A stretch of 45,109 bases of DNA from assembly GCA_027314605.1 (NCBI GenBank), contig DAHVAM010000002.1, forward strand, positions 1-45,109, written 5' to 3'. Positions 20,791 through 23,413 of this stretch are shown in pieces (the stretch's first letter is position 1; the number at the start of each line of letters is the position of its first letter). Source of the stretch: Microcaldota archaeon. Lineage in GTDB: Archaea; Micrarchaeota; Micrarchaeia; Micrarchaeales; CABMGC01. Under the pieces are notes generated by a model that searched no databases, was not told the origin of the DNA, and was given only the letters and a program-made list of their open reading frames with translations. A program made the position numbers and the translations under genes.

Positions 20791-21141
20791 ATGATGTTTA
20801 TGTCAGGAAGAAATGACAAGATGGCCAGGATAGTCGCTCTGCCCGAAGCCCTCGAAATCCTCGAAAAGAGGGAGAAGGAGGGAGAGTTCGGATACGAGCA
20901 GACCTTGGCGCTTGACTATGCGAAGAAGTTCTCAAAGATTGACGAGCCGAAGGCAGCCGAGCTGAAGAAGGAGCTGCAGGAATTGGGAATGAGCGAGAAC
21001 ATCGCCATTTCAATCGTCAATGTCATGCCTATGGACGTGACTCAGGTGAAGCAGATACTTGCAAACGACAAGAAGGAGCTTGAGCCAGAGACGGCAGACA
21101 AGGCATTTGCGCTGGTTGAGGGCAACAGGAGCAAGGGGTAA
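20791..21141 (+). CDS. rpoF: RNA polymerase subunit Rpb4/RpoF
   Basis: LPEALEILEKREKEGEFGYEQTLALDYAKKFSKID...; followed by DUF655 gene as in other archaea. Confidence 0.88.
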   Translation: MMFMSGRNDKMARIVALPEALEILEKREKEGEFGYEQTLALDYAKKFSKIDEPKAAELKKELQELGMSENIAISIVNVMPMDVTQVKQILANDKKELEPETADKAFALVEGNRSKG

Positions 21142-21156: not shown

Positions 21157-21744
21157 ATGGGAATGGAAGAAACGGAGCAGAGAACAGGGGATTTGGAAGA
21201 GTATGCCTACGTTCTCGACTACCTGCCTACGGGCAAATCTTTTTCTGTCAGGTCTGAGCCGATAGTGCAGCTGATAGGGGAGAACAAATTCACGCTTCTT
21301 GAGGCGGTCCCAAAGACTGCCGAGATAAAGGTTGAGGAGAGGCTCTACATAGGCAAGGGAGTAAGGGACAAGATTTCACTTATAAAGTCAAGGCTAGCGT
21401 ACGAGAACCTCACTGAAGGCGCAAAGGCGCAGCTTCCGCTTGCTGTAAGCGCGATAATAAAATCACAGGAGAAGAAGTACGTCGACTTTTTCAACAACGC
21501 CTCTCCGCTCAACATCAGGATGCACATGCTCGAGATGCTTCCTGGGATAGGGAAGAAGCACCTCCAGGCCATATTGGAAGCGAGGGAAGACAAACCCTTC
21601 GAGAGCTTCGCCGACATCTCGAAAAGAGTGGCGCTGCTCCAGGATCCTGTAAAGCTGCTAACTGAAAGGGTGCTCATGGAGCTGAAGGGAGAGAGCAGAT
21701 TCTATGTCCTCGCAAGGCCGGCGCACCAGCAGCTCCCAAGGTAA
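21157..21744 (+). CDS. DUF655 family putative RNA-binding protein
   Basis: EEYAYVLDYLPTGKSF..., HhH-like MLEMLPGIGKKHLQAILEARE. Confidence 0.88.
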   Translation: MGMEETEQRTGDLEEYAYVLDYLPTGKSFSVRSEPIVQLIGENKFTLLEAVPKTAEIKVEERLYIGKGVRDKISLIKSRLAYENLTEGAKAQLPLAVSAIIKSQEKKYVDFFNNASPLNIRMHMLEMLPGIGKKHLQAILEAREDKPFESFADISKRVALLQDPVKLLTERVLMELKGESRFYVLARPAHQQLPR

Positions 21745-21796: not shown

Positions 21797-22084
21797 TCAG
21801 GCCTTCTGAAGGTGCATCTGCGGGACTACAAGCCTTCTCTTGGTCGACTTGCTGAGCTCCATCTCGACAACATAAGCGTCTCCCCTCCTTCCTATCACTA
21901 TAGCTGTTCTTCCCCTGTACCTCGGATGTGGCACGCTCCTGTTCCTTGTGCTCCTAGGCATTATCACGACCTTGCTTCCATTCTCGAAGTTCTTGATGAG
22001 TTTTGTAAGGCCCATCTGCGACGGCTTGATGTGCCTCGAAAGCCTCCTTGTGCTCCTTGAAAACAGTCCTTTTGACGAACTCAT
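21797..22084 (-). CDS. rpl21e: Ribosomal protein eL21
   Basis: LTKLIKNFENGSKVVIMPRSTRNRSVPHPRYRGRTAIVIGRRGDAYVVEM...VPQMHL. Confidence 0.88.
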   Translation of the reverse strand: MSSSKGLFSRSTRRLSRHIKPSQMGLTKLIKNFENGSKVVIMPRSTRNRSVPHPRYRGRTAIVIGRRGDAYVVEMELSKSTKRRLVVPQMHLQKA

Positions 22085-22133
22085 AATATCAGCATTAACC
22101 TTTGTTCAGTTAGCTTTAACATGGCAGAAAAAC

Positions 22134-22142
22134 ATATAAATA
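22134..22142 (+). promoter_or_regulatory. TATA-box-like element for the TBP gene
   Basis: ATATAAATA about 30 nt upstream of ATG 22171. Confidence 0.6.
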
Positions 22143-22170
22143 CCTTCTTTGCATATCTTACAGTGGTAAA

Positions 22171-22503
22171 ATGCCTAACAACGGCTCCAAGCGGGGTAAA
22201 AAGATAGTCTTGAAGCCGGATTTCAAGATCGAGAACATAGTGGCCAGCGCCGACCTTGGCGTTGAGCTTGACCTGTACGCGATAGCCAAGGCGTCTCCTG
22301 ACGTTGACTATGAGCCTGAGCAGTTTCCCGGGGCGATCTACAAGATACACGATCCCAAGACAGCGCTTCTCCTCTTCAAGAACGGCAAGGTGATATGCAC
22401 GGGATCAAAGACCGAGGCAGACATCCACAGGGCGATAAACATAGTCATCAAGACAGTGCAGAAGTACATAATCACAACAAAGCCTGACGAGAAGAAGGAG
22501 TAG
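22171..22503 (+). CDS. tbp: TATA-binding protein, single-repeat (half-length) form
   Basis: FKIENIVASADLGVELDLYAIAKASPDVDYEPEQFPGAIYKIHDPKTALLLFKNGKVICTGSKTEADIHRAINIV is one TBP repeat; stop follows immediately. Confidence 0.9.
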   Translation: MPNNGSKRGKKIVLKPDFKIENIVASADLGVELDLYAIAKASPDVDYEPEQFPGAIYKIHDPKTALLLFKNGKVICTGSKTEADIHRAINIVIKTVQKYIITTKPDEKKE

Positions 22504-22546: not shown

Positions 22547-23413
22547 CTGAAAACGCCGAAGCTGCAAAGCGCAATGGAGTACCTGATGACCTACGGCTGG
22601 GCCATACTCATCATCGCTGTCGTTCTGGGAGCCCTTTTCGGACTCGGTTTCTTCAACTCCGCAAATCTTGCGCCAAAAGTTTCCGCAGGGTCTTGCCAAG
22701 TCTACAGGCCAGAAGGCCCGGGTACTACTTCATTCGTCAATTTGGAAGGGACATGCAACAACGAACTGCCGCAGTACGTGGCAAGCTATTCCTCGTCAAG
22801 TTATATAATTACTGGAACTTCGGGATTGCAATATGGCAGCCCAACAATCTCGGAGTTTGCATGGATTTACTATCCCACAGCCGCTACCAACTACCAAAAT
22901 ATATACATATACGCCAGCAATAGCGGTTATAACGGAATTGCACTTGCCGAAGAGCCATCCCCATCGCATCTCTGTGCAAATACGGGCCAGTATGCGTCTC
23001 CGTGCCCCTCAACTACGCTTACATTGAGCGCCGGCGTATGGAATTTTGTAGGATTGGTATACGCCGGTGGTAGCACTTTCACTGTATATCTGAATGGTCA
23101 GGGATCAACGGAGATAAACAGCGGTGTTGTTAACTCGCCTGCAAGTTCTAAGATAGGCGGATCTTTTGGAGGGTGGGCCCCTTTTGTTGGTTTGATTGCA
23201 AACATCCAAGTTTACAATACTTCACTAACGGCAAACGAAATAACAGCCCTTTACGATGAAGGGATAGGGGGCGCGCCGATACTTCCTCAATATCTTGTGG
23301 GGTGGTGGCCGCTGAACGGCAACGCGAACGACTACAGCGGCAATAACAACAATGGCGTTCCGTATAACATAATATACGTGAGTGCATGGACATCGGGGTA
23401 CACGGCTCCGTGA
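22547..23413 (+). CDS. Class III signal peptide / pilin-like protein with LamG domain (copy A), predicted CTG start
   Basis: KLQSAMEYLMTYGWAILIIAVVLGALFGLGFF; LamG-like body; first ATG (22574) lies inside the conserved signal motif. Confidence 0.8.
   Translation: MKTPKLQSAMEYLMTYGWAILIIAVVLGALFGLGFFNSANLAPKVSAGSCQVYRPEGPGTTSFVNLEGTCNNELPQYVASYSSSSYIITGTSGLQYGSPTISEFAWIYYPTAATNYQNIYIYASNSGYNGIALAEEPSPSHLCANTGQYASPCPSTTLTLSAGVWNFVGLVYAGGSTFTVYLNGQGSTEINSGVVNSPASSKIGGSFGGWAPFVGLIANIQVYNTSLTANEITALYDEGIGGAPILPQYLVGWWPLNGNANDYSGNNNNGVPYNIIYVSAWTSGYTAP

Follow-up and report, generated by a model that had tools for sequence, protein, structure and literature searches.

Can an archaeon read its promoters with half of a TATA-binding protein (TBP)? 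The two-fold pseudo-symmetry of TBP is a textbook case of a dimer that was duplicated and fused into one chain, and a gene that appears to encode a single TBP repeat, as a preliminary description of its sequence had proposed, raises the question of whether the unfused unit can be a working factor. This gene lies in a stretch of 45,109 nucleotides (the window) from contig DAHVAM010000002.1 of the Microcaldota archaeon assembly GCA_027314605.1.

The window gene encodes one TBP repeat

The reading frame is intact from an ATG start to a TAG stop and encodes 110 aa (Table 1). A search with hmmscan matched the repeat family PF00352 once, at residues 17–99, over the whole repeat profile (positions 1–85 of 85; 104 bits, the cut-off being 22.9, E 3.9e-30), and found no second PF00352 repeat in the 110-aa protein, confirming the count of exactly one repeat. 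The archaeal TBP models of NCBIfam (PRK00394), in which membership means a two-repeat protein of about 180 aa scoring above the model cut-off, gave at best 98.6 bits, below their cut-offs of 181–347, with about half of each model covered, which places the window protein outside that family. No repeat 2 follows downstream, where the next ORF encodes an unrelated LamG-domain protein; this part of the preliminary description stood, while its statement that the next gene begins within about 45 nt depends on a possible non-ATG start at about that distance, the ATG being at 22574. The LamG-domain gene (22574–23413) has a pilin-like start (MEYLMTYGWAIL). A sequencing frameshift hiding repeat 2, or a lost second repeat, was ruled out in practice because five sister genomes of the genus, as well as dozens of further species, carry the one-repeat gene too.

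Table 1 Features of the half-length TBP locus, in window positions
Feature	Position	Strand	Evidence
Rpo4/RpoF RNA polymerase subunit, conserved neighbour	20791..21141	+	PF03874, 33 bits
DUF655 protein, conserved neighbour	21157..21744	+	PF04919, 209 bits; neighbourhood alike in A_DKE
Ribosomal protein eL21, divergent neighbour	21797..22084	-	PF01157, 59 bits
Divergent intergenic region common to the TBP gene and eL21	22085..22170	.	eL21-TBP arrangement in other loci
TATA-like box TATAAATA preceding the half-TBP gene	22135..22142	+	(A)ATATAAATACC conserved ahead of the family's A orthologues
Half-length one-repeat TBP, paralogue A	22171..22503	+	110 aa; PF00352 over full profile; AF2 model
Codons of N22-I23-V24, strand S1	22234..22242	+	Expected dyad and minor-groove contacts
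Codons of stirrup YEPEQFPG	22309..22332	+	E48 and E50 align to human E284/E286; F52 is the first kinking Phe
Codon of F69, second kinking Phe	22375..22377	+	Motif holding F69 kept in 144/146 halves

The organism is a member of Candidatus Micrarchaeota: the top named match (83%) is a MAG of this phylum, and the hits also include the complete chromosome of Candidatus Micrarchaeum sp. A_DKE. When compared by phmmer to the TBP of P. woesei, the window protein scored 85 bits to repeat 2 and 68 bits to repeat 1, its pairwise identities to canonical repeats 1 and 2 are about equal, and the tree described below fails to assign it to one of them, a combination that makes the mixture of repeat-1 and repeat-2 features reported earlier a fair description. 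The AF2 model is a half saddle (pLDDT 84) whose significant matches are all TBPs, and its best PDB matches are TBPs, most with an rmsd of 0.8–2.3 Å over 77–94 aligned columns.

Residues expected of a general TBP are conserved across the half-length proteins. Among 146 halves, the stirrup YEPEQFPG, the second Phe motif and the Asn of strand S1 were each kept in 144; in a separate alignment V24 is invariant and N22 nearly so, and N22-I23-V24 are the contacts expected at the dyad and minor groove from TBP structures in general. The kinking Phe residues, the dyad Asn and the TFB-contact Glu pair are thus present in about 144/146 halves, the glutamates corresponding to C-lobe positions of human TBP that contact TFIIB/TFB (PMC7221094). 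In the TBP of M. jannaschii (MjTBP), efficient DNA bending needs both Phe sets (PMC4041446), and therefore one half alone should not suffice; judged by these residues, two halves would be needed, each able to dock TFB.

A second half TBP in the same genome

The genome that contains the window (758 kb, 58 contigs, 85% complete) was searched for a full-length TBP elsewhere; none was found in this 85%-complete assembly, as the preliminary description would predict, and a second stand-alone half TBP was found instead. This paralogue (B, at G000:C12:7317-7562) is 51% identical to the window gene (A) over 87 columns. The two genes have separate neighbourhoods, A adjoining eL21 and DUF655, and B adjoining a glycosyltransferase, here as well as in A_DKE. 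A single ordinary TFB of 365 aa is encoded; it has two cyclin repeats, and its N-terminus is rich in cysteine, resembling the usual zinc ribbon. A full TBP was likewise found in none of five sister genomes of the window's genus.

Half-length TBPs are widespread

Half-length TBPs occur through much of Candidatus Micrarchaeota and in a second candidate phylum. PF00352 matches were present in 272/295 genomes of the phylum, and in 95/96 when completeness had to reach 90% and contamination could not exceed 5%. Within this high-quality set, 25 genomes have exactly one PF00352 match, each read as a one-repeat ORF (24 A-type or other halves and one, G052, B-type), so that a lone half-length gene is the sole TBP found in each of them. 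A very divergent partner could nevertheless lie below the PF00352 threshold in these one-half genomes. On the closed chromosome of A_DKE there are two halves, and a full TBP is absent. Much of the window's order (families f1 and f2) has both A and B, whereas several f1 genera have A alone. Two-repeat TBPs, mostly of about 185–220 aa, are found in families f3, f6, f7, f12 and f20. Of the 19 genomes from the second candidate phylum, one of them recorded as Diapherotrites, most have one to three halves, and some two-repeat forms also occur.

Several loci depart from these patterns. One f2 genome (G093, locus L032) carries a canonical two-repeat TBP beside its half-length matches, perhaps by contamination or transfer. 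At a contig end (L026, G021:C39), an in-frame partial second copy lies upstream of half-TBP A with 98/99 bases identical, which may reflect either tandem fusion in the very recent past or an edge effect of the assembly. A 726-codon open frame (L358:1463 onward, G314:C8) encodes four divergent TBP repeats, after which come a likely membrane segment and one more domain. An origin from a virus or plasmid was considered and rejected, as viral contigs gave two-repeat TBPs only and the phage records yielded just three TBP genes, all distant and from haloarchaeal viruses.

The promoter and the eL21 locus

The TATA box attributed to the gene in the preliminary description is retained upstream of its orthologues (Table 1). 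Among the loci scanned, 70 have eL21 transcribed divergently from TBP, with both half and two-repeat forms represented: the eL21-linked loci include halves of families f1, f2, f8, f11 and f14 and two-repeat genes of the f3 class, f6 and f20, those of f6 and f20 having been read directly. Sharing this locus makes the half forms positional orthologues of the fused ones. One f6 genome (G142, L124) has a half TBP at the eL21 locus, the other f6 members read being two-repeat. In several loci of genus g3, the TBP promoter box between the divergent TBP and eL21 genes is the near-palindrome GGTATATAAATACC, for which autoregulation or a two-way promoter is possible.

Motif fitting in three genomes, with crude gene calls, recovered an AT box of the TTTWWAAA type and an A-rich, BRE-like stretch upstream of it. 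Greater symmetry of the TATA core in a one-half genome, which a homodimer would predict, was considered as its signature and rejected, a point against the homodimer reading: across these three genomes and crude gene calls, core asymmetry showed no difference between the one-half (0.068 ± 0.025), A+B (0.072 ± 0.037) and two-repeat (0.077 ± 0.026) genomes.

Two-repeat TBPs within the half-TBP clade

In a tree of 108 repeats over 87 columns, limited by its long branches and few columns, the halves and the two-repeat TBPs of these phyla (the local forms), with each of their repeats, all fell into one clade against canonical repeats 1 and 2 (99/97). Placement of local repeat 2 with canonical repeat 2 was rejected (AU p 0.0002), as was that of local repeat 1 with canonical repeat 1 (AU p 0.0001); the half clade siding with canonical repeat 2 gave p 0.28 with the same 108 repeats and 87 columns. 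By this phylogeny, the local two-repeat TBPs do not appear to be products of the canonical duplication, as both of their repeats fall inside the half-TBP clade. Identity between repeats 1 and 2 is 48–79% in the local two-repeat TBPs, above 60% in all but one, compared to 29–54% in canonical TBPs.

Fusion of halves into two-repeat forms probably happened at least twice according to the tree, since the repeats of G314 pair with each other among the halves of the second phylum (97/83) and a single clade of all local repeats 1 is rejected (p 0.014); a single clade of all local repeats 2 gave p 0.0498. Within Micrarchaeota, a single fusion is compatible with the tree (p about 0.25). The presence of several two-repeat TBPs at the eL21-linked locus of the halves fits re-fusion, and gene conversion homogenising the repeats could mimic part of the signal. 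That the half TBP descends directly from the pre-duplication TBP, with the ancestral homodimer kept and halves later fused anew, seems doubtful to us.

A two-repeat relative with repeats 79% identical (L168) was predicted by AF2 as a full saddle (pLDDT 93, TM about 0.8–0.9 to solved TBPs), a model showing that two nearly identical repeats of the half clade fit the TBP architecture. S1 spans 11–12 residues per repeat in this model and only six (residues 23–28) in the lone-half model; a short S1 is expected if the strand needs a partner, and the two predictions weakly suggest as much.

A proposed dimeric saddle and its alternatives

Given that the kinking Phe, dyad Asn and TFB-contact Glu are kept in about 144/146 halves, a homodimeric saddle is the best reading, and the window gene probably encodes the general TBP as a single repeat that works as an A/A homodimer. 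Two subunits would join via strand S1 and rebuild the ten-stranded saddle, each contributing one stirrup with two phenylalanines to kink the TATA box at one end. Each subunit would also bring a glutamate pair able to dock the single ordinary TFB, and direction would be set by TFB reading the upstream BRE rather than by TBP. The A/A homodimer would be the core form; where B exists, A/B heterodimers may restore the repeat-1/repeat-2 asymmetry, and in some relatives the halves would have been fused again into two-repeat TBPs. What is observed directly is the sequence, its distribution and conservation, the synteny and the tree; we infer the dimerisation, DNA binding, TFB contact and sole-general-factor role of A, as well as the role of B.

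The preliminary description held that the protein must homodimerise or pair with another half. A second subunit does appear to be needed; the genome turned out to encode B as well, and the existence of relatives that have just one half gene argues for homodimers being enough. In the window's own organism, a heterodimer is as easy to envisage as a homodimer because there are two half genes and the genome is only 85% complete. It is conceivable, if rather unlikely, that the A/B heterodimer is obligate, A acting as the repeat-1-like and B as the repeat-2-like part of the saddle in the window's order. The coexistence of A and B in many f1/f2 genomes, including closed A_DKE, with conserved neighbours that differ between them, would fit such a division, as would the residue before the S1 Asn, which is E in 50/51 f1 A genes and Q in 16/17 f1 B genes, canonical repeat 2 having Q in 10/10 and canonical repeat 1 having E in 6/10. 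However, f2 follows the E/Q split less strictly, many f1 genera (including 11 near-complete genomes) have A only, and there is just one half in many other families.

We consider it very improbable that a half TBP works alone, as a monomer bound at one TATA-box end, and leaves the remainder to TFB: although TFB is ordinary and the TFB-docking stirrup is intact, the MjTBP requirement (PMC4041446) speaks against this, a lone half would expose S1 with its conserved dyad residues, and the re-fused forms have restored two repeats. Hardly credible at all is that the gene is a minor paralogue or artefact with another role, a full-length TBP being hidden in the missing 15% of the genome. Such a gap does exist in an assembly only 85% complete, and G093 in f2 does have a canonical TBP besides its halves, perhaps as a contaminant, but full TBPs are absent from the five sister genomes, the 25 near-complete one-half genomes and closed A_DKE.

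Comparison with known systems

Under the homodimer reading, there are archaea alive today whose working factor appears to be the unfused unit, one named strain among them, A_DKE, having a complete genome; in relatives, fusion seems to have been repeated, as a re-run of an ancient event in the evolution of transcription. It becomes testable whether TBP can function when symmetric, how polarity arises without TBP asymmetry and what benefit fusion brings.

The earlier statement that no stand-alone half TBP had been described was nearly right: single-lobe archaeal TBPs are noted in one methods sentence of a 2020 paper (PMC7221094), citing Brindefalk 2013, and that sentence mentions stand-alone archaeal lobes without taxon, function or evolutionary analysis. 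They are probably the same thing as the halves described here. An account of half-TBP distribution, dimer logic or re-duplication was not found in the literature searched, which left most subscription papers and bioRxiv preprints outside. The N-terminal TBP-like domain of RNase HIII is, like the half TBP, a single nucleic-acid-binding lobe of the TBP fold; in contrast, it is bacterial and part of a nuclease, has mostly Tyr/His in place of Phe and does not conserve the TFB-contact glutamates (PMC7221094). Poxviral VITF-3 is a non-standard TBP/TFIIB pair of two chains, and was rejected as a two-chain precedent because these are a tripartite TBP fold and a TFIIB homologue rather than a dimer of half TBPs (PMC12917281). 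The canonical archaeal TBPs (P. woesei 1PCZ, M. jannaschii 2Z8U, S. acidocaldarius 1MP9) have the same fold per repeat, about 38–47% identity to single repeats, and share the kinking Phe, dyad Asn and stirrup with the half TBP, but they carry two fused, diverged repeats in one chain of about 180 aa where the half TBP has one repeat per chain.
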